In this document: in pieces, positions 3,093-29,902 of the stretch
Position numbering within the stretch: the first letter of the stretch is position 1
How the letters are laid out: the number at the start of each line of letters is the position of its first letter
DNA from: Chaetoceros tenuissimus
Lineage: Eukaryota > Bacillariophyta > Thalassiosirophyceae > Chaetocerotales > Chaetocerotaceae
NCBI GenBank assembly: GCA_021927905.1
Contig: BLLK01000060.1
Location: forward strand, 372,001-436,000
Length of the DNA stretch: 64,000 nucleotides
Direction of reading: 5' to 3'
Program-made: the position numbers and the translations under genes
Notes under the pieces: generated by a model
What the model saw: only the letters and a program-made list of their open reading frames with translations
Database searches by the model: none
What the model was told of the DNA's origin: nothing

Positions 3093-3924
3093 TTAACAGC
3101 AGAGTTGTGTAAGAATACCGATTTTGTGCTGCAAAGTGAAAATCTAATTTCGGCTCCAATCGACGCGCAATAAAATACTAATACCTTTCTAAAAGCTCTT
3201 TTTACGCTTGTTTCAAAACTGTAGTCGGAAAAATCTCGGAAGCTTTCTGAGTTGAGATCGTCACTTTTTCAAATATTTGGTGTTGAATCCCAACCATATT
3301 TCTCGCCACAAAATGAGTTGACGAACGCAAGAAGTTACATAATTTTCATTTCAATAGTTTTCTAAATATTTATGTAGTTATATTTGTTGTAGGTCAAGTT
3401 CAAAATGATTTATTTGAGTGTATAGAAGACATGGTCGATTCATGATTCGAAATTGGCTTCAAATTCACTCGATTTCACAGACCAATGACGGAGATTGTGC
3501 CATTGTTGGTACAGTCCGTATGGTACGTACGAGAAAGAATCAAAGAAAATCCCTCCAAAGAGGCAATCGATAGAAATACTTGCTTTTACTCTATGGTCAA
3601 ACTAATTACATATTCATTTGATTCATTCACAGAATAACTACAAGAATTTATTTGTGACTTCTCGCGTTCGTCAACTCAGTTTGTGGCGAGAAATATGGTT
3701 GCAACCAAACTGTGACATAACCGAAGTAAGCTACTTTAGAGGTTACTTTCTCAACTCAGAGAGCATGCACGCTCTCGTCGATTACAGTTTTGAAACAAGC
3801 GTAAAAAAAGCTTTTAGAAAGGTATTACTACTTTATCGCGCGTCGATTGGAGCCGAAATTGGCATTTTCACTTTGCAGCAAAAACTCACAAAAATCAGGT
3901 ATTCTTACACGACTCTGCTGTTAA
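3093..3924. mobile_element. Foldback/MITE-like element with ~250-bp inverted arms
   Basis: The left arm starts at TTAACAGCAGAGT (3093) and the right arm ends at ACTCTGCTGTTAA (3924). The arms can be aligned inwards, with gaps, for about 250 bp. Shared blocks include TTTCGGCTCCAATCGACGCG, TACCTTTCTAAAAGCT, TTACGCTTGTTTCAAAACTG, CCATATTTCTCGCCACAAA and GAGTTGACGAACGC. The middle (about 3350-3610) is unique and has no ORF of note. TTAA at both outer ends could be a piggyBac-type target duplication, making the element 3097-3920. No transposase is encoded, so it would be non-autonomous. The right end touches the stop codon of the gene on the minus strand. Confidence 0.75.
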
Positions 3925-6900: not shown

Positions 6901-8355
6901 AGGCTGGAAACCATCTTCTTCTTGAACCTTTCCTTGTAACCCTACTTTTTTCCAAACGCCTTCCATGATATCATCTAATATCCCTAGTGCAACGATTTTA
7001 TGCTGATTATCTTCTTCATTCAAGGTAATAGTAGGTGGGAGGGTCAGCCCTACATTATTACTTGATCTTGAGCTGTTCGAGGTAGAATTTGAATCATCTC
7101 CCCTTTTCTCATCAATTGCCACTAGTTTCATTTCTATAGGTTTGTTTCTACGTTTCTTCTTTTTCCTACGTTTTTTACCCTTAACATTTCTACTCCCACT
7201 ATTTCCAACGGCTTGTTGATTAGGATGGGAGTTGAGTAGATCCCTTTCGGCCAATTTCGTTATCTCGGATTTCAAGTGATTCATAAGCATTATTCTAAAA
7301 GTATCAATTGTAGTATTTAAGCGCACAAGTTGGATCTCCTCTAAATCGCGGGTCATTCTAACATCTGGTCGCCTTGTTAAAAGTTTATATACTAATTCAT
7401 CTCGAAGTTTACCATCAGCTATCGATACTTCCAATAATTGTTTCATAACGCGTGTAACTGCAGACGAGATTTGTGACACATTTAATTGTCTCAAAGATGC
7501 TTCAATGGAATCTACTGTTACAATCTTGACGAAACCATTACATCTATGGAATCGAAATGAATTCCATAGAGCAATCTCAAAACGACTTGCCAAATACGTG
7601 GATAAAGAAAACCACTCTTTGGTTGGCTGTAACCATGGAGCCATAAACTTGCAGCTTTTTCGCTGTGGCTCTTCACTCAAAAATCGACCTCTGGATGCTA
7701 TTTTCAGCACCTTGAGAAAATAAGCTTTCTCATCTTGATGTTCTCTGTAATTGCATCTTTTAAATGTGCAACATCGACTCTGTTCACCTCCCCCCTTTAA
7801 GTAAGTACCAAATAAAAGTTCCTCATCGATTATTCTCATTTCTTCTGTTGGCGCCAAGCTTAATTGCTCACCCCAAGACGCTTTGAACTGCCTTGCAATC
7901 ACATCATATGATAATGCATTCTCGCCTCTATTTCTCTTTTGTTTCGATGATGATTGCACAGTATTTTCTTTGCGAACCATTGCTGCAATTTCTGGTGGCA
8001 AAGAAGCCAGACTCTGATCAAGATCGAAACCATTGCTGGTTTTTCTTTCAATAAATTGGTATAATCGTGGACGAACTCTTCTATTCCTCATTATCCTTTC
8101 TTCCTCATCTCTTCCATCGCTTGAAAACACATTTGATGCTAGTTTTACTCCCATCGCTCTAGGATGTATGGGCGTCGGTGGAGGACTTTGTAAATCTACC
8201 ATCTGCTTCAAAAGCTCATATTCGTGGCTTTTCGCATTGGCATCTTTTTCAAAAGCAAATGTGATTGCATCACGAAATTCACTTTCTGAGAGTTGCTCTA
8301 TCCAATTCTTTATCAAAGCTATTTCCTCTGATTGCTTCTTTTTTATTCTTGACAT
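3921..8355 (-). CDS. TRF4/TENT4-like non-canonical poly(A) polymerase
   Basis: Four exons on the minus strand: 8355-5056, 4976-4799, 4729-4572 and 4505-3921. All introns are GT-AG (79, 69 and 66 nt) and the frame closes to 1,406 residues. The catalytic core is at the C-terminus and is assembled only after splicing. The first splice gives VSYGSQETNLRLPRSDLDFV with the metal-binding pair D1113/D1115. The third Asp is D1190 in LQLDVSFD. The central domain follows (MIQPMVLILKQFLLDRGLL, YTGGLSS), then the nucleotide-recognition stretch (DLGGLL, DFYGNVFD, GGQYFRR). Family role: adding short 3' tails to nuclear or cytoplasmic RNA for exosome decay. The N-terminal 1,040 or so residues are unlike usual TENT4, with basic K/R runs near 395, acidic stretches and no recognised domain. 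Its first 145 codons are duplicated at 27.1-27.5 kb. Confidence 0.85.
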
Positions 8356-8765
8356 GATGGCGAGTGATGTATGATGTAGCTTTCCAAAACGAAATGTAAA
8401 AAGTCAAGTCTCTCCTCTCTTTTCCAGTAGAATGCGATGCCTAATAGCCCTCGACTGATGTATTCTATTGCAACGCTAATCAATCTATGCAATCCATCTT
8501 TGTAATGTAAGCAAATAATAGGAGTACTGTACAACTTGAAGATGAGAACAACGGACAGACCAAAATGATCCTTCTTTTCAAAGATGGAGAAATAGGTTTT
8601 GATACAGCCTCTCTAAACCGTAATGCAAGTGAAGTAAAATAGTGAGTATTGTACCTTACATAGTGAGTAGTAGTAGTAGTGAAAGCAAAATGCAATTGAA
8701 ATCTCCTTCTTTGTAATTGTTGATAATATAAAAACTACTATTCGATTTAGCATAAACAAATCAAG
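8356..8765. promoter_or_regulatory. Ancestral divergent promoter (copy A)
   Basis: A 410-bp spacer between the nucleotidyltransferase start (minus) and the truncated PUM3 start (plus). The parts adjacent to each start are conserved with the copy at 27.5-27.9 kb: the first 70 bp upstream of 8355 are identical, and a block around GATACAGCCTCTCTAAACC is shared. These conserved islands are the best candidates for promoter elements. Confidence 0.5.
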
Positions 8766-8819
8766 ATGGCAGTGAGGAACGATAAGAAGAGAAACTTGAT
8801 GGCAAAAAGACTAAGGAGG
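8766..8819 (+). pseudogene. Truncated 5' end of PUM3 copy
   Basis: ATGGCAGTGAGGAACGATAA matches the first codons of the intact PUM3 gene at 27919 (ATGGCAGTGAAGAACGATAA) and the alignment continues for about 54 bp. A one-base loss shifts the frame after the 10th codon, and homology then stops. The frame ends in a stop at 8820-8822 after 18 codons. Nothing of the PUF domain follows. Confidence 0.85.
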
Positions 8820-8822
8820 TAA

Positions 8823-9049
8823 ATCACCATGATATATATGCGTTGCAGTAATAGACATTTTGGGCAGCAGAACATGGGATAATATTTGCGATTTGGTTTT
8901 GCTTCCTTTTGCATTTTTTTACTTGCATCGCTCTTGACAGAAAGCCATGGTAGAAATATTTCATGCTAAAACTGATTTTATCCTTCGGCAACAACGTTGG
9001 AACAATCAAGAGCAGTGCATATGAACCTCCCAGAGAACAGTCAATAGGA
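8823..9049. other. Unassigned spacer
   Basis: About 230 bp after the end of the duplicated segment. I see no gene, repeat or RNA here. It marks the left border of the 18.3-kb interval. Confidence 0.4.
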
Positions 9050-9492
9050 TCAGTAGATATTAAAATTGGAGCAAGAACAGGTTAGATTTGAACAACGAAA
9101 GGGCCGAAGAGGAAAAGCAAGTGGCTGAAATACAAAAGAATACCAAAGAAGAAGACTTGAAGCAGAGGAGGAGGAACGATAGAGAATTATTCTAGAAATT
9201 GAACTTGAACGATTGGTGGAAATTGAGCACGAATGAAAAGGAGGAATTGGCAAAAGGATTCCCTTTCTACAAAGCTTGGCTAGAATGAAAAAAGATTTAG
9301 AATCCAAGGATCTTACATCTAGACTGATTTTGTGACAAGAAATTCAACCATTTAAAAATGGGCTAGAAGAATCGATTAGACGAATCAGCAAGCTTGAGCA
9401 AGCGGAAGTCAAACGTGAAGACAAGGAAATCTACATGAATATTCTCTTGGAAAAGAAAGAAAATAGACAATGTAAGAAGAATTACTTCCTTT
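9050..9492 (+). pseudogene. Decayed coiled-coil coding relic
   Basis: The plus strand has the codon texture of a charged coiled coil broken by stops and frame changes. One frame reads RRRLEAEEEER, a stop, then ILEIELERLVEIEHE and a stop. Further on another open piece reads LEESIRRISKLEQAEVKRED and ends at a TAA at 9490-9492. No intact gene can be drawn. It looks like the remains of an IQ or coiled-coil type host gene, but the parent cannot be identified. Confidence 0.45.
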
Positions 9493-10280
9493 AACTCTCA
9501 CAGAAAAAATATACTCAATTAGACAGCTTTTGTAAAAAACTGTCAAATACATTTGCCTACACTTACCCCTACTTTATTAGAAATATTCTCTCGTTATTAT
9601 CAAGATCGAGGAAATATTGTTGTGTATCATGATCCCATTTTCTTTTATTGATGATCACAATTATATCTTTTCCGATAAAATCTTCCGTGGTTTCGTTCTG
9701 TCAACCCAACAAAAGCAAGAAAAGTTTAAAAGAATACTCGTGCAGACTATCAATTTACAACACCATTTCTTATTATCCTTACGAGTTCAGAGACGAACAG
9801 TGTGTCTATCAATACTACCATTATCTCTCATCCATCCCTTACCATCATCACCTCATCATTCTTTAAACAAAAAGATATTTCCAGCTTTGATATTTTTATT
9901 GGGAAGGTAGACCTGCATAGTACGTACATTGATACTCAGAAAAAATCATCAAAAACGTCCTAGATATCCTCTCGGTCACGTAAATAGTGCAATGGTATCA
10001 AAATGCAATATGCTCAAAGACTGAATAAATTCTATATCAAAATAATGTATAATACGATCGAATGACAAAATTTTAGTGTCTTGAACGATTGAATTCATGC
10101 GTTGAAGCTTCATGCACTTTTTTTATTGACAATTTGCATGATACTTAAGAAGATGGAAGGGAAGGCGGGAACTTCTTGCTTGGCTAATCCAGCATACAGT
10201 AAAAATACTGAATACTGAATCTAGTTTACAATTATCCACCAGCAACATTGCGCAATATTACATAGCAAAATTCTTTCAAA
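9493..10280. other. Intergenic region before the giant gene
   Basis: About 790 bp of AT-rich sequence. A plus-strand open frame of 97 codons (9617-9910) has no protein-like composition and I do not call it. The last few hundred bases probably carry the promoter of the giant gene. I see no repeat or RNA gene. Confidence 0.4.
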
Positions 10281-13200
10281 ATGTACAGAAAGTTTACTGG
10301 CTTTCTATTTTTACCTTGCATCATTCTTGCACTTCGTCTTCTTCAGTTTCTCGATGTATGTGAGGCTGGTGGTGTTCCTTCGGTGAGGAGAGGACGAGGA
10401 GGAGGGCAGAAAATTGTTGCTTCAAAAGAAAAAAAGGTAGAGGAACAGCAGCAGCTCTATACTAGTGATACTTTGAATGAGTTTCAATGGAGTACTAGAG
10501 ATACAGGTAGTCTGGAAAAAGACTTCGACGAAGATACTCCTCATCCGAATCATGATAGCAGTACTAGCAGTGGTGGTGATATTGAGGACACTACTACTAA
10601 TCAACATGAGGAGGACTCGGCAGCAAGAGGGGAAAATAATCAAGAAGATGATGAATCCTTAATTCAAGATACTTTTAGTGGCAATTTTTCTCTCGTTAAA
10701 GCGGATCAACGTGAAAAAGAAGAGAGGAGTCCTCTCACCACTACTCCTGGTGTTGGGGTTCTTCACCATGGTCACCAACAGGAGTCGTCGTCGTCGGAGT
10801 TTTTGGAAAAGATGCAGAGTGACAAAACACCATTTGAAGAAACATCTGTGTCGGACTGGGTATTGAATTTGGCGGGAAAAGAAGAAGAAGATGACGTCAG
10901 CGAAGTGTCAGTCAGGAAGAATCTTAACGGCCAGTTACTGGTAAGTCAGGTATTTTCTGCCAGCTACGTACAACATTTTTTTTCTTTCCATCTCACATCC
11001 ATTACCATATTTATAGACCACTAAAATCTTTGGAAAATCTTCTCGCAGACTTTCAAGTATCAAAGAAGATGAAAATGAACAAGGTTTGAACATCTTTTCA
11101 AAAAAGAAATTGGCGTCTTTTTCTTCAATTCGTGATTCTTCTAGTTCTCGTCAGTCCTTGGTAAAAATGAGTCCATATCAACAAGGTGCAGAAAACAAAA
11201 ACACTCTAGCAACTAGCAAAAAACTTAATGGAAGAAATCGCCTTTCGTCATTCCGATCTGGAGCTATGCAGATGCCACTAACTGCAGTGCGTTTCATTTC
11301 AAACTACAACTATGATGGTACAGATACACTTTTCTGTCTAAAGGTTAAAAGTCTCAGAGTTCCGGCCAAGTTACAAATTAGAGCGTGTGATTCAATTACC
11401 GATCAAAGCAACTGGTTTTACTTTGACTCTAATCAGTATCTTCGTCTCAGCATTGATTCGTCAAAATGCATCAGATGGGTGAAAACTAGTTTGATTCTTG
11501 ATAACTGTCCTTTGGGAGAGACAAATCTCAAAAGAGCAAAATTTCAATTCAACAAAATACTCAGTGGAATTGAAGCTCGAAAAGGCGATGATTTCAGACA
11601 ATGGATGATTGGAGTTGACCGGACGGACAAATTTGATTTGGTTCGTCTTTTTCTCAGGAATGGTGGAAGAGACAATAGATCGTGTTATGCTTGGGAGATG
11701 GATTATGCAAGTGAAAGTCCATCTCTATCTCCCACATCCTCTCCCTCTACATCTCCATCTGTCAAGCCCTCATCTAAACCATCTTCTCATCCAACTGCTA
11801 AACCTTCAAGTGAGCCTTCTTTACTTCCGAGCTCATCGCCTTCAGTGACTCCGACAGCTGAACCTTCTATGCGCCCAAGCGCTTCTCCAACATCTACACC
11901 TTCCACTTCACCTTCATCTGAGCCCAGTTTACTTCCTTCGGATCAGCCTTCTTTGCTTCCGTCATCGATACCATCTGATATTCCAAGTGGTAAGTCAATG
12001 GTGATTGCATCGTCAGTGTTGGGTCTTGACTTTGCTATGATGAGGTGTGTTCGTCTACATGTGTCTTCTTTTCTTTACTTTTACTAACTACAATATTTCA
12101 TAGATGCGCCTTCCGATGTTCCGTCTGATGTACCTTCGGATCAGCCTTCTTTCTTCCGTCATCGATACCATCTGATATTCCAAGTGGTAAGTCAATGGTG
12201 ATTGCATCGTCAGTGTTGGGTCTTGACTTTGCTATGATGAGGTGTGTTCGTCTATATGTGTCTTCTTTTCTTTACTTTTACTAACTACAATATTTCATAG
12301 ATGCGCCTTCCGATGTTCCGTCTGATGTACCTTCGGATCAGCCTTCTTTGCTTCCGTCATCAATGCCATCTGATATTCCAAGCGGTAAGTCAATGGGAAT
12401 TGTATCTTTAGTCGTTAGTTGTTTTGCAAAGCTATTGTTTTTGGTGTTTGGTCTTGACTTTGCTATGATGAAGTGTCTTCGTCTATACGTGTCTTCTTTT
12501 TCTTTACTTTTACTAATTGCAAAGTTCTTTTTCTCAATGTTTCATAGACGAGCCTTCCGATGTTCCGTCTGATGTACCTTCGGATCAGCCAAGTCTTTTG
12601 CCATCTGCAGGTCCATCTAGCCTTCCAACGACAGAGCCTTCGCTGCTTCCGTCATCTGAGCCATCAAATCCGCCTTCTGATATACCGTCGACAGTTCCTA
12701 GTGATTCTCCGTCTATGGTTCCAAGTATAGAACCAAGTAACTCACCTACTGATTGCGTGGATGAAATGGGCTGGATTGTTGGTGGACAGTCCGACTACGC
12801 TGGAATGACTTGTACTCAACTTAGCTCCGAGGTTCATGACTGGTGCAATGCCGTGGGGAATGTGACAGACCATTCTTACAATGGAAAAGGTGTGAAAGAG
12901 GCATGTTGTGCCTGTGGTGGATCACATTACATGTCGACTTATCCATCGAGTACTCCCTCTAGCAAACCTTCAATCTCGTCTGCACCCACTACTGACAGTG
13001 AGGCACCATCTGCTGCTCCTTCTTCACAACCATCGGTCTGCGTTGATACTCCTGGTTGGGAATTTGAACATGGAGGTGCTTCTCTCGGGTGTAGTGCGAT
13101 CGAAGAGTATCCAGACGATTTTTGCAAAAGGTTTCAGGATATTTACTTTTTGGGAAAAAATACTTTTTCTGCATGTTGTACCTGTGGAGGTGGCATACAT

Positions 13201-16200
13201 CATTCTGTTTCGCCAAGTTCCTTCCCCACGGACTCTCCAAGTAACATTCCCACTTCGAATCCTACGTTGTCTCAAACACCAACCATAGGAATCACATCAT
13301 TCCCAAGCGCTTCCCCTTCAACATCTCTGGAGCCTTCTCTTGCACCTAGTCGACAGGCGGGAACCGTTTACGATGATATGGAATGTAGTTACACCTCAGA
13401 ATGCAAGAATGTAGGAACTAGTTTTTGTTTACCAAATGAAGATGAAAGTATTGTGACCAGCACTGGGAAGATTTGTAGAGCGAAAACGGTAAGATTTTAG
13501 TTGTGTTGGCTTGTATGTTTTTGTTTTCTCGCAAAGTAACTCACACTACTTTAAAAAACAAGGCTGATGAAAGATTTTTGGAAGAAGCATATGATATGGA
13601 TAATCCAAAGCAAATGTTGAGACGGAGAGACGTAAGTGAAAAATTCAATGTATCGTCATTTCATCTCAATTTAATTCTCATTACTCACCAATGCAACAAG
13701 ACTTCTGAGACTTTTAATGCAATGAGATCATTGATAGATGGTATTTCTAGACCTTATTCCCCTATTGATGGTATTCAAAAAGGAGGTATTCTGAAAAATA
13801 AATCATCCTCTACAATCAAAGTTGAAGGGAATGTCTGGACAGGAATTAAAATGACCAATGATGACAAAGTAGAGAAGCCGTATTTTTTGACTCCTCATAC
13901 ACGGCTCCGCTTTAAATTTACCTTGAAGAATGAAGCAAAGTCACATGCACTTTGTCTAGATTTTGATTCAATTGCAAGTGACCCGAGAAAGTGTTTATAT
14001 CTAGCTGGGACGGATTTCAATCCAGCTCAGCCATTTTCGCCCAAGACCGACTTGGATTTACAGAGGGCAAAACATTTGAGTTTGGCTTCCGGTATGGTTG
14101 CCACTCAAAGTTCTACCGACACTGATGAGGTTACTGATGCATATAAAGCTATTGATGGATTTCTTGACCCGCATGATAAAGAACTTGTTTATCCTGAAAA
14201 GAATTCCATTTCCAAGACAGGCAATGGAAGTAATCAGTGGTGGCAAGTTCAGTTTGATAGTGAGGTTTCTATTGATCGAATTGTCATTCATAAGGCGCAT
14301 GATTTCCCGCTTGATATTTTTCAATTGAAAATTTGCTTAGATAATGACTGTACTAGTCCTAATTACACTGAGAGAATAACAACAAAAAATTCCATAATTG
14401 ATCACAAATTGGACAGTGCAGCAAAAGGCAAAATTGTTAAAATCGAGATGATGCAGGCGGGCGTTTTAGCACTGGCGGAAGTGCTAGTATTTGGTCCTGA
14501 TGAAGTCGATGCTGCTAAAAATACTATCAAAACTTTTGATATTCCTGTTGGAAAGATGATAATGGAAGGTATCAGCTTTGGATATCCTCTATGGAACGGT
14601 ATCAAGAGACAACTAGAATCAGTGAATGGTAGTTCCAACGTAAATCTTGATTCGAGCTATCTTGTCACTGATGTAATGGTTGAGTTTTCATCTTCAATCT
14701 CTACCATCCAAGTAGGTTTGAAGGAAAATGGTGAATTTGTGTGCTCAATGCTTTTAGAAGATTTGAGTGATGACTTTGTACATGTTGCTATGCCTCCAAA
14801 TTGTTTTGGTGATAAAGTTGAAATCATTGATGTTGGGACCCAAGTTGAGATTGTTCAAGTTTTTGGATCAAAAAACAATGACAGAAAAATATATGGAAGA
14901 CCACTAATCAAATATATTGCTCTGATTCAAGATGAAATATTGGAAGAGTCGATAGCCTTGTCGTCATTTTCAAATATTGAGCTCTACGAACGGACAGAGG
15001 CCAGTGATGATACTGCTATGGTGAGTATCTATGACAATATTTCCTTTTTTTATAGGAGGGGTGAAGCCTGATTATGAGGACCCTACCCGAATTTGCCGCC
15101 GCCGGAACGAATATTGAATTCTACCCTGGTCGAACCCTTATTACTCAGACTCTGTCGTCATAGTAGTGATATCCTTAACCGATACGGATGCCTCTACTTA
15201 GTGTTTAGTCAGTGAAGAATCTGTGGATGAAACATTCACCCCTCTGAAAATTTGGGTAGATTCCTGGCCGCCGGAAGCCGTCCATCATTCTACCCGCCTG
15301 GTCGATAGTTGATAGCCCTCTCCATACAAGGCTTCACCCCTCCTATGCAATATTTCCTTTTTTTATGCATTTCTAATTTTCATTGCTTAATTTGTATCTT
15401 GTTGTCCTGTAATAGTTTCGTCCTCTCCAAGTCAATGATAAAGACTCTTCCAGTGCCATTCCTTATGGTAATGTTGCTGCTTTCAAACAAGACTTTGGAG
15501 GGAAAATAGAAGTCAGCACAGACAAGACCGCAGTCACTATTCACGGTAATGCGTGGAAAGCTTTTAAATTAGCTACACCAATCACAGTAAATGCAAAAAG
15601 CACAATTGAATTCAAATTCATGCTGCAAGAGCAAACGGAGGGACATGCTATTTGCGTCGACAATGATCTTAATCATGATCCTTTCATGGGCAAAGATGTG
15701 CGTTGTATCTTGTTGGCAGGCTCTCAGTTTAGTGACTGGAGGCATGTGTTTAGAAAGAACCTTGCTCTTGATGGGACAGCCTATCAAAATTTTGATTCGA
15801 GTAACTTATCTCTTGGTGCGGCAAGTAGGGGCAACGATGGGAATCTCAACACCTTCACCAACACTGGTTTCCCAGATGATGGTGTAGATACTGACTTTTG
15901 GATTCAAGTTAAAGATGGATGGGTTGCGGAAGAAGTGATAATTTACAATAGAATGGACTCTTACGTAGATCGTTTCGATGATTATACAGTCTACATTAGA
16001 AAGAGTGATGGTACTATTTTGGACCAAAAGAGGCTAAACACAATTCCTGAAAGTGGAATCATCCGTGTGAGTGGATTCAGAGACTACGAGTCTGAAATGA
16101 CAACTAATGAAAAGATTGAAGTGGGGATCAAACTTCACAATAAAAGTGGAACCAAGTTTCCTCACATGATTGCTGAAATGTTTGTATATGGTCGGCCGTT

Positions 16201-19200: not shown

Positions 19201-22200
19201 CTTGAGTTACCTTCTTTTCAAATTACTTTCAGTAGCAAAGATACCTATGCAAAAAGCAAGACCAGGACGACTGCTATTTCAGATAGTGGCACAGTTATAG
19301 TAATTGAGGACGGTGGCAACTTAAGAATATTCAACCTCAATGCTGTTTCTGAGAAATGGAATGAAGATACAACTTCAACTATATTTACTTCAACTACAAA
19401 AACTGTGCTCCAGGTAGCCCTTAGTACACATGGACACTTCCTTGCTGTTCTTTTTAAAAACAATAATGGAAGTAAGGAGCTCATCCTATATCAAAGAGAC
19501 GCGTTAAAAATGGATTATAAGGCAAGGACAAAAAGTCCTGTCGTAATTTCAAATTCCTCTGCTGATCAAATATCTGTCTATGCATCTGAGTCAGGTCTAG
19601 TCTCCGTGGCTGTGAAAGCAAAGGGTGTGGATGATACTATTATGAAAACAATCGAGGTAAGATATACTTGCATGAAAAGCAACGCAATTTTTATGCTTTT
19701 GTCATTGACTAACATTTCAACCAATTTCAGTTTCATTTTCTTTGTTCGGATTCAAACTCCCGTTTCCTTGAAGGAGACTGTCAATGCCGCGACGGCTTCG
19801 TGATAAACTCATCTACTCATGGAATGAAGAAATATTTGGAGCAAGGTGATTCCTGTATTCCTCAAATCCATTCAACAGAAATACATGTTACTGCAAGAAT
19901 GGCTACTATTCCTCTTCATAAAAAGACTGATTCTAAATTGACAACGAAATATGACGGTGATGATCATCTAGTTTCAGACGGAGTCAAACTTGAAAAACGA
20001 GTTGAATCGAGTTCCTTCCAAACGGTTTCATTGAAAGATATCGCCAAGGTAGTAGACCATGGTGGAGAAAAACCAAAATTGCAACTAACATCATTGGAAC
20101 CTGGGAAGATGTACCAGTTGACAATGAAATATGATGAGACTTTTGTAAAGGTCAGGTTTGTCACTCACTGTACGTGTAATACTGCGAGAGATATAACTGG
20201 TGCCCCAAAGGATATGAAAATAGTCGAGCAAAAAGAAGGAAGAGTTTTTTTCTCATTTGTGGACAACTCCCTTTGTGAAAATGCGTTTTCATTCATTAGA
20301 TATGCAGCCTACGAAGAATTCTCAGAATCACTTGATTCTGCAGTATCATTTGGAATGATGTCTTCCCCTTCTGATACCAAGTGCCACCACGAGAAGATAG
20401 AACCAAACGAGGAAGTTTTTGATAATTTGACTTTGTCAAAACTCATTGTTGGAAAGACATATGTGTATTGTGTGCGTGCTGGTTCAAGTAAAGGAGCATA
20501 CATGCCTTCTCCTTATGACTTTTCTGATTCTGGGGAAGATCTAAGCTTCTCCGAGGCGAGCTGTACACCTCATGTCATCCAATGGGAGGCTTCAATAAAC
20601 GGAGTAATCACAACAGAGCCACAAAGTGGGTCATTGCCAATCGAAGGTGTTGAAGTTACCTATCAACTTCTTTCCATGAACTATGAAGATCTTTCCTGCG
20701 AAGGCTGCAATGGGAAGAAATTTACACAAGCTGGTGGAGGATTCGTGATTGATTTTCTCTTGACACATCCATACTTAGAAGGAGTGACTCATTTAACTGA
20801 GATACCTCTCAAGTTGAACTTCAGTAAAACAACCAAAGGTACAAATGATATTCATCATACCTTCCTTTGTAATCGTGGAGAAGAAGTTTGCAGTGAACAA
20901 GGCCATATTGTGTTTTTAAAACACTTGGAATTCCAGAAAAAAGTAGAAATATACGATTCGACTCAGGTAATGTTGTCAGGAAATGTCTTCTTATTAGATA
21001 CAGTGTTTGCTGGTTCAAATGGCTGTCCTGTCCCAAATGCAAAAGTTGAAATTTTTCACAGAGTCCCTTCGATTGATTCGCCAGAATTGTTAACTCAGAC
21101 CGAGACAGATGGACAAGGTCGATATGAAGCCCCTGTCGTGATTGGTTCCGTAATAAATGAAATATCAATTTATTATGAGAAACATGAGTTCAAAGCTGCA
21201 AGCAATAATAACTACGACTACAAAAATGGTGTGATCATATCGGCTGATGGTCTCTACAATGGAAATGACTTTGTCGATGTTACTAGAGCTTCGATGACAC
21301 TCGAAGGTAAGTAAAATGATATGATTAATATTCATACGATGAAATGCTTCTCACTTGTTATGCTAGTTGCCGGTGGAGATTGTAATTCACCTTTGGGGAA
21401 AACAACTGCCCAGATTTCTGTGCTTGGATGCAATTGGCCAGGAAAAACTGTAATCCAAGATACCAACAATGGTGACGAATACAAGAAAAGAATAGTCAAT
21501 CTACCTGCAGCAATTTTAGAAGTTCAAATCATAGATATTGTGGACGAGGACGACAAACGTATCAATGCAATTTGGGAGTCATTTCAAAATCCAGTAGTTT
21601 TTAGAACTATTGATTTGAGAGATACTAGTGTTTTGGAAGACATGATCCAAGAAGAAGAAAAGCAAGAAGTCCATACTACTACTGGAAAGGCTGAAGACGA
21701 TGCTGGGGATGTAGCTGGGGATGCCCTACCTGATAGTGATGCAATGATGCAAGAGAAAGAGACTGTTCGCTTTCAATACGATGGCACTTTGAAAATGGTC
21801 GTTTCGATTGAGCACCCATCAACATTTGAGGTACAGGATGTCAAGTATGATCAACTAGAAGCGTCATATAGAAATTTTGATTCGTTCCATGTAATTGACT
21901 ACATGTCCCTCTTCAAGTTGCAAATTGATTTAGAGTATGAAATTATAAAAGATGAGGTGTACTGCAGCAAAGTAGACAATTCGCATTATATTAGTATTAG
22001 CTCTAATCTTGGAGCGGACAGAATGGATGGCTTTGAAGAGTTTTACAACTCTGTTGATTATGTCACTCAAGACCTTTTACTTTTATGTAATGATGTCGAC
22101 CTTTCTGGTATCTGGGACAACGGAAGCGATGGTCAAGGTGTTTGCAACGAGCAAGTTGTCCCAGCGGGTACTGAAGGTTCTACAAGGTCAGGTCTACCAG

Positions 22201-25200
22201 ATAATTACTTTTTGCTCGCCGGCCGCCCAAATCCGTTTGGAGACTTTACAAGAAATCTGTTTCTCAGTGTACAATCCAAGGATAAAGCAATCGATTTGAC
22301 GCATACAGCAAAATTTTTCATACAGGGTAATTACGGGAAAGGTATCGGTAATATGTTTGCACTTCCCACTCATTACCCAATTATGATTTTGAGAGATCCA
22401 CCTGGAGGATCTTCGTTTGCATCATATGAAAACATTGTGACAAAGTCAAGAATTGTCGGGTCGGAGACAATTATCAAGACAGCTTCTGCAGGAGAACTTA
22501 CTATTGGGGCTGGTGCAGCATTCCAAGGGGACTTGTGTAGTGGGGGTGGAGTTGGTGCAATTGTATTGTTCTGTACAGTGAGTATCATACTTTTTGTCGG
22601 TGTAAAATTGTTCATTTCTTTCTTACCTTAAAGCCCACATTTGTTTGTCTTCTTGAAACAACAGCAAGTCAGTGATGCCAAAACAAGCGCAAATGTGCCT
22701 CTTCGAAGCGACTTGAATTCAGCATTAATGCACAAGTCTGACGAAAGGAAAAATGAAATTGCGACAACATGGTCATATACTACAAGTGAAGAGCCTGCCC
22801 GTGCAGGAAAAGAGTCGGACGTATTTGTAGGTGAGTGTGGTTCTGAAGAAATTGAATACACAGAATTGGTGTAAATTGTAGAACTTACATCGTTATTGTT
22901 AGTTCCAAATTTATCTGTGTTGTATGAGGAGATATTCATGGTTAAATGGGACAAAGCGAATAAGAAACCAGAACTGGTTGAAAAACAAAACGGCAGAAAA
23001 GAATTCGAGACATCAATAGCATTTGATCTTGAAGCTGCTTCGAACAAGCCATCCCTAGCATTTTATAGTCTTTACCATCTTAGTGAGTAAACTTTTTACC
23101 GCATTGACTACATTTAGTTGCAGATGTCTAATAAGTCTCCTATATTTAGCCACTGTAAAGATTCCGGAGTTAAAGTCAGCAATAGTTTCCCAGACTGGAA
23201 CAATTTCAAAAATGTCATCATCAATTGTTTGTTGTCAGGCTCCTACCAAAGGGAGCTGCCTGGGAAGAGTCAATGCTACTCACCCCGGGAGGATATGTGT
23301 AGACTCAGATTTTGAAGTTGAAAAATTAAAGTTACACACACTGAACATCGCTCTTCAGAGCTGGAATCATGCCATTGAAGAAAATGAGAAGAAAAAGAAA
23401 GATGCTGCGAATTCCAAAAAGAGAATAAATAACTGGTTTCAGGGTAATGGAAATGGTGATGAAGACTTACAAATCAACGATATTGCAACACCACTAGTAC
23501 CTGAAAAATTGATAAAATCTGCAGAGAGTTCCTATCTTTTTGATGGTCAAGAAGGTTCTGGCTCTGATCATAACAGAGATGCAATTAGAAAGGCGATGAG
23601 AGTACAAATTTCAGGTGATTCAGGGCTATTAGAAATGACTTTAAGTAAAGTTGCGACGGAATCCTTTACTTCACAAAATTGCGATATGAAAATTCCTGGA
23701 ATTATTGCAGGTAAGTCTAGAATTGAAAAATATTTTCTATAATGAGAAAATTGGTACTCATAACATATCAGGAAGTATTGCTGGAGTTGGATCACTATTG
23801 GGACCTGGTCTTGCTGCCTCTTTACCAGTTGTTGCAGGGGCGCTCACAATAGGAGCAGCAGCTGCTCGCTGTAATTATGACCTAGATTTGCAAGCTGGAG
23901 TCGGTGGTCTTTCAACCTCTTACAAGGGCCCTGGTATCAATTTGTCATTCAATGCTGGGGTAAATTTTGATTTTCATGTGGAACACTCCAGCTCAGTGAC
24001 AAGTGAAGACGAAGCTGAAACATCGATTTCATTTGGTCTTGGCGATCCAGATGACGGAGATGAGATCGTGCTTGAAATCTTTCATGATGAAGTCTATGGA
24101 AGTTTTGTCTTTAAAACAATTGGAGTAAGTATGATTATACTTGCAATATTTCATGCACTTGGGCACAATTTCTAACATCATCTCAAACAGGGAGTTACAA
24201 GATGTAGATGGGAAGGTAAGTAATTCAAGTTCTTCATCAAATCCTTTTCTTCTGACTTTGCAACTGACAGAATCACTCTACGTCAATAGAAAACACCCTT
24301 AAAGCAGAAGGTAAGTGTATCCAAACTTCTTTTGGCAACATATTTTCATGACACTGTCAATTCACTTTTTTTCTAGACCCTCGAGTACGAGTAGTGTCAC
24401 AGCCAAGTCAATTCATATTCCCAGACATAGATATGCTTTTTGATGTTGAATTCATGGTAAGTGAACCCTAATCCAAATTAAGTAATGCGTACAGTCAATC
24501 TTACGCTACATTTTCGCCACTCGATTAGAATATGGGAGAGCATCAATATTCATACTTTTTGATGGCTCAAGATATCGATGAAAAATCTGCTACTCTTGGT
24601 GAGTGAATTAATTCAATACCCGTGCTTTGTACCTTTCGATATCCATGTGCTCATGTATACATTATCCTTTTAGGTATGACCCTTGACAGTTTGAATAGTC
24701 TAGATTATGAAGGAGCCACGATCAAATTATGTAGGTTACTTTCATCTTTTTCTAAAAACGTTTATTACCTGTTGAATTTATTCCAATTGTGATTTCTCTC
24801 ACATTTTATAGACAAGGAAATACCTGAAATGCGTTCAATAAGAATTATGAGGGGACCCCAGGATTACGTGTTTAAACCTGCAAGAATTGCATTAAGAAGT
24901 GCTTGTGAATTTTCTATGGATTACGAGACGGTGAGTATGAAATTCCTAGTGATTGAGGTTTTCAATTAGAAAGTGTGCTAACAGTTTTTTCAGGTGCCTG
25001 TATCCGAATTTTTATTCAACTACGTCGAGCCTGGCACTGGTGAGAAGAAATTAAAATGGTTAGAACCATGTCCTATGGCACAATATGCTGGGGAACTCAA
25101 ACGTGACCAAAGTTTCATAATGAACACTCTTTCACCTGTGCGCGATTCCATGACTGTGACTATTTTCAATCCAAAACGCTCTTTGAAAAAATCAACTTTT

Positions 25201-27020
25201 GCTGAGAAACTGGTTCCAAAAGGAAGGCTCGAAAAGATATCTTTCCTTTATCGTAAACAAGGCACTTCAATATGGAGCAACGGTCTTATGCAAACTAATA
25301 AAGGCTTGGAATACATGAACTTTGCTATAATGGAAGAGAGTGAGTACGGTTACGTAAGTATAGACTGGTACATCGAGGGTGTAGTTCCTGACGGCACTTA
25401 CGAAATAATGATTGAGGCAGAATGTGAGAAGCTTGTAGGTATGTAGACAAAGCCATATTTTGATAATACTTATATCCCCAAAATTCAATAACCAATACTA
25501 CATTCATCAAAATAGGGCCCATGGAATTTCTTTATTCAAGAGAAAATATCCTGACGGGTGTTATCGACTTTAGTCCACCAGAGCCATATGGTAAACCATG
25601 GCCTCTCAAAGAGGAAGTCCTCCTAGGACAAGAAATGTATGTTGAATTTACTGAAGATATTGACTGCAGAATACCTTTCAGTTTTGATTTGGAATTGCGA
25701 ATGGCTGGGCAGAGTAAAAACCCTACTTTGAGTCCAAGTCCTAGCAGTATTCCATCTGGCTCAATTGCTCCTTCATTGACATCATCACCCAGTTTATCTC
25801 CTACTATGTCATCGAGTCCATCACAGACATCGGAGTCACCATCTTTGGTTCCTTCCTTAAGCTCAAAACCATCTATAGAATCCGAAAAAGATACAATATA
25901 TCGTTCACTAAGCTCATCCGCAGTATTGGAGGACAGAGCCTTGACCGAGAGCGATGAATTTGTCCTCAGGAATGGAGACGGCTTGCATGTTATTTGTGAG
26001 AATCGAAGAATCAAGTTTCAAGTTGACTATGCCAGTGGTCTCAGTATTTCTCAAATCAATGGTAAAACTTTCACTGTTGAAATAGGAAGAATTGGAGGTA
26101 AAAGTGTATCCTATATTGCCGACAAGAATAGAAATCCCATCGATCATCAGACAAAGGGTAATATTCGCTTCACAAAGAAATTTGCTGCGATAGATATCTC
26201 AAGAGCTACAACACAATTTAGATTGTTGAAAAGGAGTGAAGATATTTCCTGTTCAGCTGACGAAGAGAGGCTCTTACGATCTGATATGTCCGCACTCTCA
26301 TCGATAAAGAATGTCGATAGGTTTAATATATCAAAATTCTACTGCGATGAGAAGAGATCGTTACTTACAGCTCAAGTCGAAATTATACCTGTACCAAATG
26401 GTCGAAGGCTTTTGAAGGGATCTGATACATCTACATCGTCTGATATTTTTGAAACTTTGAAGAAAGCGTTCAGCAATAGGTCCTCCGAAAGCAGCCACCG
26501 AAAACTACGCGAGGATGAATCTTACACTATTGAAAACGTTCAAATTATCCCATGCAAAGAAGACGAGGAGAAATACTCTACTGCTGTTACCGAGACCGGA
26601 GAAAGTCATGAAACGGATTCAGAAAAAACGGCAGATGAATACGAGAAGCGTGAACAGAGGTTGTTACAGGAGATTGATAGAAGAAGAGAGATCGATGTCA
26701 AAGAGCAGAAGAAAGAGCAAGAGGCTTTAGTAAAGGCATTGACAGAGCAAAATGCTGAGCAGAAGAAAGAGCAAGAGGCTTTAGTACAGGCTATGGCAGA
26801 GCAAAATGCTGAGCAGAAAAAAGAACAAGAGGCTTTAGTACAGGCTATGGCAGAGCAAAATAAGGCAATGATAGACCAAAATGCTGCGTTAGAGCGACAA
26901 CTAAGAGGATCAGAAGCATCAAAAATGAAATACGAAATGATGTTTCAAATGGTAGTCTTTTTCGGTATTTGTTCGCTTGCTGCTCTTGTATTTTTCCAAA
27001 CGACTAGACAGCAAAATTGA
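10281..27020 (+). CDS. Giant secreted, membrane-anchored lectin-like surface protein
   Basis: Exons as read: 10281-10940, 11017-11989, 12104-12186, 12301-12384, 12548-13488, 13563-13631, 13701-15020, 15416-17433, 17517-19656, 19731-21306, 21367-22577, 22665-22830, 22903-23082, 23150-23710, 23772-24124, 24191-24215, 24290-24310, 24377-24456, 24529-24598, 24674-24730, 24812-24930, 24994-25438, 25516-27020. All introns are GT-AG and phases agree, except that the 83-nt exon 12104-12186 breaks the frame. Skipping it gives exactly 4,858 codons including the stop. Order of parts: signal peptide, beta-trefoil-like lectin domain (11281-11700), PSxxPS repeats, two ACCxCGG cysteine modules, two F5/8C galactose-binding modules, a long unknown region, an EGF-like CxCxxGF knot (19770), FN3-like and carboxypeptidase-regulatory-like segments, conserved glycine-rich blocks, a second PSxxPS run, coiled coil and a C-terminal membrane helix. 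Probably cell-surface adhesion or polysaccharide binding (inference). Confidence 0.8.
11719..12756 (+). repeat. PSxxPS low-complexity repeat
   Basis: Coding repeat of Ser/Pro units such as SEPSLLPSSQPS and SDVPSDVPSDQPS, running through the end of exon 2, the two small cassettes and the start of exon 5. It is interrupted by three related introns. This linker type is widespread in extracellular stramenopile proteins, where it probably forms an extended, glycosylated stalk. A shorter second run lies at 25720-25875. Confidence 0.9.
11950..12600 (+). repeat. Tandem intron-exon cassettes (~198 bp)
   Basis: Introns 11990-12103 and 12187-12300 are both 114 nt and differ by one base. Intron 12385-12547 is an older, 163-nt relative with the same ends and interior. 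Each is followed by the same PSDVPSDVPSDQPS-coding exon start. Introns 1 and 2 have a yeast-like TACTAAC branch site. All are phase 1, so adding a cassette of 84 coding bases keeps the frame. The first cassette exon has only 83 bases. Confidence 0.9.
12757..13200 (+). other. Two ACCxCGG cysteine modules
   Basis: Within exon 5 of the giant gene. Module 1 (12757-12924) runs from CVDEMGW to ACCACGG, with six Cys. Module 2 (13039-13197) runs from CVDTPGW to ACCTCGGG, with the same spacing pattern. They are separated by a short PSxxPS linker. This C-x-D-x2-GW...ACCxCGG module is recurrent in diatom secreted proteins and probably forms disulphide-bonded knots. Its ligand is not known to me. Confidence 0.75.
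13740..16210 (+). other. Duplicated HxxCxD + F5/8C lectin module
   Basis: Two copies of a bipartite module. Copy 1: a beta-rich segment ending SHALCLDFDSIASD and LAGTDF, then an F5/8C (discoidin) domain at about 14071-14490 with ATQSST, AIDG, QWWQVQFDS, DRIVIHK and LALAEVLVFG. Copy 2: EGHAICVDND and LAGSQF, then an F5/8C-like domain at about 15760-16200 with NLALDG, DFWIQVKD, EEVIIYNR and IAEMFVYG. F5/8C domains bind galactose, fucose or other surface glycans. The MITE-bearing intron separates the two copies. Confidence 0.75.
15054..15347. mobile_element. MITE inside intron of the giant gene
   Basis: A 294-bp insert inside the intron 15021-15415. Its ends are inverted: AGGAGGGGTGAAGCCT at 15054 and AGGCTTCACCCCTCCT ending at 15344. 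It is flanked by identical 19-bp direct repeats CAATATTTCCTTTTTTTAT (15035-15053 and 15348-15366). The interior is GC-richer than the surroundings and has subterminal CTACCC(G/A)AATTT blocks in opposite orientation. No ORF. The host intron keeps intact splice sites. Confidence 0.8.
26703..26864 (+). repeat. Three 54-bp coding tandem repeats
   Basis: Starts at 26703, 26757 and 26811. Each codes for an 18-residue unit EQKKEQEALVxAxxEQNA that forms a membrane-proximal coiled coil. The second and third copies are nearly identical, so the expansion is recent. It sits just before the C-terminal transmembrane helix (VVFFGICSLAALVFF) of the giant protein. Confidence 0.9.
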
Positions 27021-27115
27021 GGAAGAAATTGACGGTGTATGTTAAGGAACTGGAAAAATAATAATTATAAATACACGTTTTTGATTATGATGTTCCTCTG
27101 ATAGACCTTTTATGG

Positions 27116-27507
27116 TCTCGCCTCTATTTCTTTGTTTTTGTACAGTGTTTTCTTTGCGAACCAATACTGCAATTTCTTGGGGCAAAGGATCAAGATCGAA
27201 ACTATTGCTGGTTTTTCTTTCAATGAATTGGTACAACTTTCATTATCCTTTCTTCCTCATCTCTTCCATCGCTTGAAAACACATTTGATGCTAGTTTTAC
27301 TCCCATCGCTCTAGGATGTATGGGCGTCGGTGGAGGACTTTGTAAATCTACCATCTGCTTCAAAAGCTCATATTCGTGGCTTTTCGCATTGGCATCTTTT
27401 TCAAAAGCAAATGTGATTGCATCACGAAATTCACTTTCTGAGAGTTGCTCTATCCAATTCTTTATCAAAGCTATTTCCTCTGATTGCTTCTTTTTTATTC
27501 TTGACAT
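27116..27507 (-). pseudogene. Truncated 5' copy of nucleotidyltransferase gene
   Basis: The first 89 codons are identical in protein to the intact gene at 8355 (from MSRIKKKQSEEI to DEEERIM). Then a 19-bp loss shifts the frame. Further recognisable pieces (FIERKTSNSFDLD, VRKENTVQ) follow in another frame up to the border at 27116. No catalytic core is present, so this cannot encode an active enzyme. Confidence 0.9.
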
Positions 27508-27918
27508 GATGGCGAGTGATGTATGATGTAGCTTTCCAAAACGAAATGTAAAAAGTCAAGTCTCTCCTCTCTTTTCCACTCGATTGCGGTGTCCAATAGC
27601 CCTCGACTAATGTATTCTATTGCAACGCTAATCAATCTATGCAATCTATCTTTGTAATGTAAATAGATGTACACAAGTAGACTACAAGAAGTTGAAGAAA
27701 AATCTTGTTGTGGAAAAGTTGCCATTCCTTTTCTTTGGTCGATGAACAGACGAAAAAGCTATCCTCAACATAGTACGAAAATAGGTTTTGATACAGCCTC
27801 TCTAAACCATTGAAAGTAGAATTGAATGCACATTTTCTGAAATTTCCTTCTTTCTAATTGTTTATTGTTGAATGGATACGACAAATAAACACTTCTATTC
27901 AACATAAAACATATCAAG
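27508..27918. promoter_or_regulatory. Divergent promoter (copy B), now driving PUM3
   Basis: 411 bp upstream of the PUM3 start. Identical to copy A for the first 71 bases and conserved again near GATACAGCCTCTCTAAACC and just before the ATG. The middle has diverged. Confidence 0.5.
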
Positions 27919-29788
27919 ATGGCAGTGAAGAACGATAAAAAGAGAAAGTTTGATAGCAACAAGGCTGAGGAGGCTCCAAGTAACTCCAAACGTGCTCTCA
28001 AGCAGGCTAGACAGTCTCATCGTCCACATGCAGAAGCAGTTGTTGCTGCAAAAGAGCTATGGAATAAACTTCGTGTTAAGACAAATACTGATGAACAGAA
28101 TGCAAAGATGATGAAAGAACTTATGGAACTCTTGCAGGGAAAATTCAACCGAGTAGCTTTGCAGCATGATGCATCTCGTGTAGTTCAAGCAGCAATCCAG
28201 TTTGGTAATCAAAAGCAGAGAAAAATTGTCATCAAGGAACTTTGTGAGGGAGGGAACTTGATCGAGCTTGCAAAGTCGCAATATGCTCATTTTGTTGTAT
28301 TGAAAATGATCAAGTACTCTGCAAAAGATGAAGACTCTATGCGCTTGATTGTCAAGGTAAGAGATTAGTTCTATTGCAATGAATATATATTTCTTTTATT
28401 GTAATGTATCTCACATTAACTTGCTTCTTTTGACCTAGACTTTCAAAGGAAACATGAATAAGTTGGCAGTTCATGCTGTGGCAGCAAGAGTTGTTGAATT
28501 CTTGTTTGCAAACTTCCCATCAAAGAAAACAAGCAAGCTAAAGTTAGAATTCTATGGACCAAGATTTGGACTCTTTAATGATGGTAGCAATGTTGGTGGA
28601 AATCCCACCATTGAGAATCTGACCAAAGATAACGAGTCGGCAAAAGAAGCAGCATTAGAGTCACTCCTTGCACTCATCAATAAAGGAATTGAGAAGGGTC
28701 TTTTCAGTTTTGCATACTTTCAGCAAATTGTTTGTGAATATGTTACTGCAGCTTCTCCAAATGATGTACGGGCACTTTGTTCTTCTCTTGTTGATCACTC
28801 TATTCATTTTCTATCAACCAGAGCTGGGGCGAGAGTCGTTGCTGAGTGTGTTTCATATGGAACTCCAAAGGATCGTAAGCGTATTTTGAAGAGTTTGAAA
28901 GGATACACAAGATCCAGTCTTTTGCATTCTGATGCATATATTGCAGTCTTGCGCATACTCGATGTCACCGATGATACAGTAAATGTACAAAAGGCATCGC
29001 TTGCTGAGTTACAACAACTTCCTGAAAAGCAAAAGAAAATCAATGTGCTAGGAGAAGAAGAAGGAGGCGACGATGACGACGAAGGAAAATCTCCTCTTCT
29101 TGAACTTGCTCTAAGTGATACTGGTTCAAAATTGTTTTTAATGCTTCTTGCAAAAGATGAAGAGGCTAGAAAGAAAGTATTTGATCCGAACGAGTTGGAA
29201 ATTCTTCGACCAAATCCAACTGTGAAAGAAGGTGATGAGGAGATTCCTACTAGTAAGAAAAGTGCAAATGCTAGAAGAGTGGAACTTTTGCAATATATGA
29301 AGAATCTTTTGACTGAATGCTGCATATCACACGCAGACTTACTTCTTCAGTCACGTTGTGGTGCAAAGGTTCTTCGTGGGATGTACGAAACTTATACATC
29401 TAAGGAGCTTACTGATGCAATTGTTGAGGCATGCGAAAATGAAGATGAAGAAGATGACGTTGGCGAAACCATGTCTATATTCGAGCATGCAGTTGGTCAT
29501 TTATCTATAAAGAATATTGTGTTGTCAGATGCAAATTCAAAGTCGAAGGCAGACTCTGTTACTGCAGGGTTAATCGAAAAATTCAAGGGTACAATGATTG
29601 ATGATATTGCTTCATCAAATAGAGGGGCCTTTGTACTTGCTGCTTTATTATCAAGTGACGACTCTGGCGTTGTCTTGAAAGAAGTGAAAAAGCAAAAGAA
29701 AGAAATCAAGAGTAGAATCAAACAATCCACTTCCATGTCCAAGCCAAGTGCTGGTTTTGAAGCACTCTTGAAAAGTATTGAGTCATAA
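27919..29788 (+). CDS. PUM3: PUM3/PUF6 pumilio-family ribosome biogenesis protein
   Basis: Two exons, 27919-28356 and 28439-29788, with an 82-nt phase-0 intron, giving 595 residues. A basic Lys-rich N-terminus (nuclear or nucleolar signal) is followed by PUF-type helical repeats: HDASRVVQAAIQFGN at 83-97, SQYAHFVVLKMIKYS, NKLAVHAVAARVVEFLF, STRAGARVVAEC and SRCGAKVLRGMYE. An acidic loop (GGDDDDEGK) and a C-terminal CPL-like region ending in a basic KEVKKQKKEIKSRIKQ tail complete it. The family (human PUM3, yeast Puf6) binds RNA without the classic sequence code and acts in 60S maturation in the nucleolus. The promoter segment and first codons are duplicated at 8.8 kb. Confidence 0.9.
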
Positions 29789-29902
29789 ATTTATTCTAGA
29801 AATCTCATTCTTGTAAATTCTTTGTGACTATTTTTTAATGATTTTAAAAAAATGTAGCTTTGCCTATTTTTAACATTTCAAACTTTTGAGAAATATGAAC
29901 AT

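Follow-up and report, generated by a model that had tools for sequence, protein, structure and literature searches.

Long direct repeats divide a divergent gene pair around a giant surface-protein gene in the diatom Chaetoceros tenuissimus

The window analysed here, a stretch of 64,000 bp from Chaetoceros tenuissimus, holds two divergent genes, for a nucleotidyltransferase and for PUM3, with a large block of DNA between them. The first large open reading frame (ORF) of the single-copy nucleotidyltransferase lies on the minus strand at 4954-8355; past ORF 8355-4954 the reading resumes in another frame with LPRSDLDFVICLPEV, as in relatives, many of which carry the domains PF22600/PF01909. Intact PUM3 occupies 27919-29788 on the plus strand (ORFs 27919-28368 and 28454-29788). 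It has PUF and CPL domains and an N-terminus resembling that of its relatives, and 114 bp separate its ORF end from the next, convergent ORF (29788-29903). The original prediction held that 7920-8819 (900 bp) and 27116-27973 (858 bp) are direct copies of one nucleotidyltransferase-promoter-PUM3 unit, here called U, and both the alignment and a genome search bear this out. The left copy combines codons 1-145 of the nucleotidyltransferase, present from its start, with the shared intergenic region and an 18-codon PUM3 stub (ORF 8766-8822, plus strand), whose ATG is at 8766 and whose TAA is formed at the junction; a 1-nt gap distinguishes this stub from the right copy. The right copy has the reciprocal content that had been predicted, namely a broken 5' stub of the nucleotidyltransferase in which stops are seen, the shared intergenic region, and codons 1-18 of PUM3, which is whole from 27919. 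Long direct repeats of 900 and 858 bp thus surround an insert-like block of 18,296 bp (8820-27115, plus strand), here called block X.

Aligned with each other, the two copies of U give 919 columns, of which 839 are ungapped and 130 of these differ. The core alone is a 423-bp match with 98.1% identity and a bit score of 737, and no third copy turned up when the 41.03-Mb genome was searched at the DNA level, so that U occurs at this locus alone, in two copies, and chance similarity is excluded. An LTR or other repeat element at the block ends can also be ruled out, since U is not dispersed in the genome. The main exons of both neighbour genes are single-copy, including the second PUM3 ORF (28454-29788), which was searched in the genome. 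As a small background sample, positions 28001-64000 of the window, compared with themselves under the default low-complexity filter, gave no match at E 1e-6.

The identity between the copies is a mosaic, which the original prediction had missed. Positions 8088-8426 of the left copy are identical to 27240-27578 of the right copy (339 sites, no difference), and an identical run of this length did not arise in any of 10,000 shuffles. This putative gene-conversion tract has sharp ends inside diverged duplicates, with neighbouring segments at p of 0.10-0.15: p is 0.121 with 44 gap columns at 7920-8087, 0.095 without gap columns at 8427-8510, and 0.151 with 21 gap columns at 8697-8819. The spacer at 8511-8696 is poorly alignable and holds 89 of the 130 differences (p = 0.514 in the MAFFT alignment); with cheap gaps it consists mostly of indels, and 8490-8819 then shows 21 differences in 250 ungapped columns. 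Since the core has no difference and most other parts of U are 10-15% different, the duplication is probably old, and one tract was probably homogenised afterwards by gene conversion. Its age is uncertain, as conversion makes any age based on divergence a lower bound; if the p of 0.514 in the spacer is accepted as it stands, U may have been duplicated as early as the paralogs described below split from one another.

The same divergence bears on the idea that alleles were joined, or duplicated by haplotype merging, during assembly. The genome was assembled with MaSuRCA and reduced with HaploMerger2, and its heterozygosity is 1.56% according to PMC8613185, which gives this idea some ground. However, most parts of the copies outside the core differ by 10-15%, with indels, against about 1.6% for alleles, the searched exons of both genes and of the giant gene occur once at full identity, and the same source describes a joint assembly of Illumina and nanopore reads. 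We therefore regard an artefact as very improbable.

Most of block X is taken up by a giant surface-protein gene at 10281-27020 on the plus strand, made up of several ORFs. Its translation has Ser/Pro-rich repeats and a C-terminal hydrophobic segment, and one ORF shows an F5/8 type C-like domain. The 1.4 kb on its 5' side (8820-10257) had no match elsewhere among those listed in the genome search and contains broken K/E-rich reading frames. By our own grouping of matches the genome has 24 other loci of this gene, giving a family of at least 25 loci. Against the four nearest paralogs dS ranges from 1.6 to 1.9 in one large exon and reaches 2.1 or saturation in a second; in a third exon it is 0.745 overall, with a lowest value of 0.35 against the paralog on C17. 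This synonymous divergence, in three exons, rules out that block X is a recent copy of any of these four paralogs, and points instead to relocation, a lost donor, or a gene that was already resident, in which last case no donor is needed. A transposon or retroelement, with enzymes of its own and a short target-site duplication of constant length, does not describe the locus either: what is duplicated is 0.9 kb of single-copy genic DNA, and a Pfam scan of four of the twelve ORFs assigned to the giant gene detected neither transposase nor reverse transcriptase.

Each copy of U is continuous with the gene that is whole on its side, and the main exons are single-copy, which requires an ancestral divergent pair with a single U. 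In relatives, linkage of the two genes was read from longest contigs of equal size and compatible sources, rather than from coordinates, orientation or the presence of U. Among the best 120 of 313 PUM3 homologs, five cases shared a contig size with a nucleotidyltransferase homolog: P0005/P0141 (10,367 bp), P0016/P0146 (8,640 bp), P0054/P0165 (61,113 bp), P0010/P0143 (1,621,586 bp) and P0099/P0175 (3,223 bp), the last of which could not hold both proteins next to each other and was counted as chance. When contig sizes were jittered by up to 10%, the mean number of matches was 0.10, and a fraction of 0.00145 of 20,000 trials had any match larger than 20 kb. Once the two proteins are accounted for, no more than 5,117 and 3,426 bp are left on the contigs of 10,367 and 8,640 bp. 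Judging from these sizes, the two genes seem to lie together on contigs of 10.4 and 8.6 kb in two relatives; block X would not fit on either contig, and the empty arrangement is thereby supported indirectly. A search of the viral and prokaryotic collections with one PUM3 homolog, P0003, found no contigs of relatives.

The giant gene itself had 16 homologous proteins, none more than 69% identical to the gene in the window, a small sample that says little on absence, and none of the 16 shared a contig size with the list of either neighbour gene. Five of them, P0122, P0125, P0126, P0131 and P0135, are 92-98% identical to the paralogs C47, C44c, C56, C44c and C34b, respectively; P0131 is from C. 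tenuissimus itself.

Taking these observations together, we consider it fairly probable that block X was inserted during break repair with a target duplication of 0.9 kb, and that gene conversion followed. We infer the following order of events. Starting from one divergent pair with U between nucleotidyltransferase and PUM3, the repair of a break would have inserted the 18.3-kb block with a pre-existing giant surface-protein gene and duplicated the target. This might have happened at a break with long staggered ends, both of which were filled in before the block was captured by end joining; alternatively, a repair fork might have copied U, changed template to the block and then returned to a point 0.9 kb upstream. 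Each neighbour gene would have kept its own 5' end and one promoter region, so that neither was lost, which is probably why the insertion survived. The two direct copies would afterwards have undergone ectopic gene conversion, which restored identity over 339 bp. The staggered break or repair insertion proposed in the original prediction thus stands in so far as one event explains the reciprocal split, the lack of convincing relics and the short contigs of relatives; the copies, however, lack the appearance of having arisen freshly in a single event, since they are diverged and partly re-homogenised. The ends are eroded, which obscures any microhomology at the junctions. Against an insertion speak the lack of a close donor among the four nearest paralogs and other paralog loci that do not cleanly repeat the pattern.

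The missing close paralog would fit another history, in which the giant gene originally sat on the far side of PUM3 (or of the nucleotidyltransferase), the second U arose by a tandem duplication that had one end in the nucleotidyltransferase (or, in the mirror case, in PUM3), and the redundant gene body and second giant gene were then deleted. A donor is unnecessary here, and tandem giant-gene pairs do exist on C44 and C16, about 21 and 24 kb apart and 87% and 91% alike in the compared stretches. Yet this history requires one duplication and two clean deletions, and no convincing relic of PUM3 or of a giant gene was found in the window, though U is still easily recognised. The best PUM3 match in block X outside U had an E value of 0.092 (28% over 53 aa) and lay inside the giant gene, and a second giant gene elsewhere in the window was represented by nothing better than E 0.16 for protein and 0.058 for a 26-bp DNA match. 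Clean deletions would leave no relics, but with 114 bp between PUM3 and the convergent ORF a deletion there would have been very clean. None of the giant-gene matches had a contig size of 61,113 or 1,621,586, in a search of limited sensitivity that used the longest contig per cluster only. This alternative is weakened by these observations, and we consider it unlikely, albeit the strongest competitor of an insertion.

The kind of event is already known, and insertion by break repair would extend a pattern from Helicobacter and Arabidopsis to a diatom. The original prediction saw here a target duplication two orders of magnitude longer than a transposon makes; long ones have been described for gene insertions in Helicobacter and Arabidopsis, and inverted ones for inversions in Drosophila (PMC1643837, PMC2869330, PMC3355041). 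Insertion with long target duplication in Helicobacter pylori was reported by Nobusato et al. 2000, as described in PMC1643837, and likewise places a gene block between long direct target repeats; that system is bacterial, often involves restriction-modification genes and was recognised by comparing two strains, whereas here an 18.3-kb block is seen in a single eukaryotic genome. In Arabidopsis, relocated non-transposon genes lie between direct repeats, most of them genic, whose sequence matches that of the unoccupied site of a relative (PMC2869330). Those repeats measure 34-120 bp, from an automated search bounded at 30-400 bp, so that U, which is partly re-homogenised and covers 0.9 kb with the intergenic region of a divergent pair and the 5' ends of both genes, is longer than the cases given in the consulted portions of that paper. 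At inversion breakpoints of Drosophila mojavensis, single-copy DNA of 1, 4.3 and 7.1 kb was duplicated, for which staggered breaks of single strands, together with end joining, are held responsible (PMC3355041), but those duplicates are inverted and surround inversions, whereas U is direct and surrounds an insertion. As proposed for this locus, break repair copies or duplicates DNA in the capture of nearby sequence (PMC2671141) and in fill-in tandem duplications (PMC8355091), though these are shorter or have another arrangement. The captures reach 619 bp for proximal and 3,424 bp for distant sources, with no target duplication of the 0.9-kb scale in the text seen of PMC2671141, and the fill-in duplications described in the consulted part of PMC8355091 are small, with induced overhangs down to 43 bp.

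The locus would represent a readable scar of the entry of a large gene into a compact eukaryotic genome; the gene would have come to lie between two housekeeping genes and harmed neither, because the stretch that was duplicated held their common promoter region together with the 5' end of each. From the identical core it would seem that repeats of this kind continue to exchange sequence. One might speculate, with little confidence, that conversion keeps the copies recombinable, so that the giant gene can pop out again, and that such insertion is a regular route of the family. Such a reversible cassette would restore the divergent pair and produce presence/absence variation of surface proteins among diatom strains at no cost to the neighbours. 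PMC8613185 notes no huge insertion between the haploid sequences, with "huge" left undefined; this makes an empty haplotype less likely for the sequenced strain, while other strains could still have one. The suggestion in the original prediction that the arrangement shows how the giant gene moved holds in that relocation is among the possibilities; block X is no recent copy of any of the four paralogs compared, and how the family multiplies is not shown by it.

We inspected four of the 24 other giant-gene loci, with 8.5 kb on each side, and compared their flanks; a reciprocal split like that in the window was seen at none of the four. C17 has a direct flank-to-flank repeat of 840 columns and 95% identity, whose right copy lies inside a longer gene. 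A target duplication was rejected there, because the paralog of that gene at C17:515 kb matches across both edges of the right copy, making the left copy a pasted fragment. This 0.84-kb fragment of a nearby gene, upstream of a giant-gene paralog, lends some colour to a further explanation for the window, in which the target recombined with a circular or linear DNA that already bore both U and the giant gene; PMC2869330 proposes this mechanism for transposed genes of Arabidopsis. Homologous recombination of this kind yields exactly the observed topology and a reversible state. Without a third U in the assembly the donor copy must have vanished, however; the genome search found neither U nor a part of it at a donor site, though the donor may have been lost, and we think this course of events improbable. 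At C32 the flanks match each other over 40 bp only. Downstream, the 3' end of the giant gene there is duplicated directly, over 1.07 kb, around a 5.8-kb segment that holds a reverse-transcriptase ORF and a gene for which no second DNA match was seen. In a three-way comparison of C32 and C47 all copies stop, by eye, at about one point, so that the duplicate at C32 is compatible with an insertion, with a pasted fragment and with retroelement transduction alike. C47 and the main locus on C34 have no flank-to-flank match. At C34:3675-3679 kb a 2.1-kb giant-gene fragment sits between units of a tandem gene array, where the repeats pre-existed.

Self-comparison and alignment of the window bore out the original prediction that positions 7920-8819 and 27116-27973 are direct copies of a single unit (U), which extends from codon 145 of a nucleotidyltransferase gene across a shared intergenic region to codon 18 of PUM3. 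The claimed reciprocal break also holds. At the left copy, the nucleotidyltransferase continues from U and PUM3 is an 18-codon stub ORF with a 1-nt gap relative to the right copy. At the right copy, PUM3 is whole, with PUF and CPL domains and an N-terminus resembling that of its relatives, and the nucleotidyltransferase is a broken stub that contains stops. The name PUM3, taken over from the prediction, agrees with these domains and with the homologs, which include proteins named pumilio family protein 6. Judging from sequence features, we take the nucleotidyltransferase to be TRF4-like and its motif to be catalytic, and the ORF to the right of PUM3 is presumably a glycerol-3-phosphate dehydrogenase. 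Just past the first ORF of the nucleotidyltransferase, the reading would continue in another frame with LPRSDLDFVICLPEV, and relatives show LPSSDLDFVICLP or a close variant at the corresponding stretch. Near the 3′ part of this gene lies an inverted repeat (3093-3924; 84-88% identity in matches of 146-176 columns). A DNA search of the assembly (41,027,912 bp, 68 contigs; the window is G000:C46:372001-436000) found no third copy of U, and the main exons searched, 28454-29785 for PUM3 and 8355-4957 for the nucleotidyltransferase, each occur once in the genome, the stub aside. The G+C content of the window is 38.6% and contig C34 measures 4,456,483 bp; the published C. tenuissimus assembly is described as 41.0 Mb in size, with 38.9% G+C and scaffolds of up to 4.46 Mb (PMC8613185).

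The reciprocal topology of the copies requires an ancestor with a single divergent gene pair and one U. We consider it fairly probable that the block of 18,296 bp between the copies (8820-27115) was inserted with a target duplication, which would account for the arrangement by one event and one conversion. Long staggered ends could have been filled in and then joined, or template switching could have made a backward jump of 0.9 kb; either would fit, and the data do not separate them. Each neighbour would have stayed complete because the duplicated target included the 5′ ends of both genes and their common promoter region. With a shorter duplication one of them would probably have suffered, which may be why this long one survived. 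The main rival, a tandem duplication followed by loss, retains some weight since it needs no donor, but we regard it as unlikely: it requires two clean deletions, and although U can still be recognised with ease, the block holds no convincing PUM3 relic (best E outside U 0.092) and the rest of the window no relic of the giant gene (best protein E 0.16).

Aligned over 839 ungapped columns, the copies of U show 130 differences, and these are unevenly spread. Positions 8088-8426 of the left copy form a homogenised core of 339 sites with 0 differences, and an identical run of such length occurred in none of 10,000 shufflings of the difference sites. The segments 7920-8087 (p = 0.121, 44 gap columns), 8427-8510 (p = 0.095, 0 gap columns) and 8697-8819 (p = 0.151, 21 gap columns) are diverged, and the spacer at 8511-8696 (p = 0.514) holds 89 of the 130 differences in the same alignment. 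When gaps were made cheap, a setting that flatters identity, 8490-8819 aligned with few substitutions (21 differences over 250 ungapped columns) and numerous indels. We interpret the core as a tract of gene conversion within an older duplication, because synonymous-site identity in a broken stub is not readily explained by selection. Given this mosaic, the age of the duplication is uncertain: the 10-15% divergence is a minimum, and the spacer may point to far more.

The original prediction expected relatives to have both genes adjacent and divergent with a single promoter, and the giant gene absent or elsewhere. Both genes do seem to be co-located in relatives, in two cases on short contigs without room for the block. 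This support is indirect and comes from two protein searches: linkage was deduced from equal sizes of the homologs' longest contigs rather than read from the contigs, a comparison blind to orientation and U. Five of 39 sized nucleotidyltransferase homologs (40 found) share a contig size with one of 116 PUM3 sizes, drawn from the best 120 of 313 PUM3 homologs. With sizes jittered by up to 10%, the mean was 0.10 matches, and four or more occurred in 0 of 20,000 trials; two matches exceed 20 kb (61,113 and 1,621,586 bp), whereas any match above that size arose in a fraction of 0.00145 of the trials. A shared size of 3,223 bp was counted as chance, since the two proteins would not fit next to each other on such a contig. 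The contigs of 10,367 and 8,640 bp leave at most 5,117 and 3,426 bp beyond the two proteins, so the block cannot separate the genes there. Two sequences from other sources resemble the window genes closely: P0001 (PUM3; 96% identical, 3,944-bp contig) and P0137 (nucleotidyltransferase; 98% identical, 4,757-bp contig).

Comparable events are on record. For Helicobacter pylori, the term insertion with long target duplication was introduced (Nobusato et al. 2000, as described in PMC1643837). Transposed genes in Arabidopsis are often flanked by direct, mostly genic repeats matching the A. lyrata target site, and circle integration was proposed (PMC2869330). Inversions in Drosophila mojavensis carry duplications of 1, 4.3 and 7.1 kb, from which staggered single-strand breaks were inferred (PMC3355041), and shorter repair duplications are described elsewhere (PMC2671141, PMC8355091). 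In view of these precedents we file the locus under a known kind of insertion, unusual in its length, host and homogenised core. Our search, mainly of literature outside subscription journals, found no report of target site duplication with gene transposition in diatoms, and titles and abstract beginnings named no case joining divergent pairs and target duplication.

The giant gene in the block (10281-27020) encodes Ser/Pro-rich repeats and belongs to a family of at least 25 loci including this one, a lower bound from our own grouping of 38 matches. Similarity to F5/8 type C domains appeared in one of four giant-gene ORFs scanned. The homolog CTEN210_14200 of Chaetoceros tenuissimus lies on a 1,427,234-bp contig, a size identical to that of contig C44. 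Against the four nearest loci, dS is 1.6-1.9 in one large exon and 2.1 or saturated in another; an N-terminal exon gives 0.745 for C17 and 1.035 for C34, is saturated for C32 and C47, and reaches a lowest value of 0.35 in 60-codon windows. These values rule out a recent copy from any of the four. The gene may therefore have been relocated, its donor may be lost, it may have been resident, or the event may be as old as the paralog splits. At 11446-11805, dS against the C17 paralog falls to 0.35-0.43 over about 120 codons, versus 1.6 in another exon, perhaps through older conversion between dispersed paralogs. For the stretch upstream of the giant gene (8820-10257), the matches listed by a genome search included none elsewhere. 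Broken K/E-rich reading frames at 8820-9500 are perhaps a decayed coiled-coil gene from a donor site.

Flanks of 8.5 kb at four of the 24 other giant-gene loci held no clear second case of the reciprocal pattern; duplicated kb-scale fragments do occur close to members of this family, on C17, C32 and C34. The right-hand 36 kb of the window, a small background sample, had no self-match. On C17, a fragment of a gene that by its sequence looks like an SNF2-type helicase has been copied to a place upstream of another giant gene, at a distance of about 21 kb from the original (753843-754676 and 775407-776246, loci L054 and L055; 840 aligned columns, 95% identical); a paralogous stretch at C17:515 kb shows 84% identity. 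On C32, the 3′ end of a giant gene is present in two direct copies over 1.07 kb (906382-907448 and 913232-914182, loci L006 and L049). The 5.8 kb between them contain a reverse-transcriptase ORF of 1321 aa, which stops about 240 bp short of the second copy, and a gene that has no second DNA match. At C34:3675444-3677561 (L015), a tandem gene array has a giant-gene 3′ fragment of 2.1 kb between its units. Two tandem giant genes on C44 share about 87% identity across 2.7 kb, and beside this a 532-bp stretch downstream is 99.4% identical (L016:557-1088 and L018:640-1171), which looks like local gene conversion.
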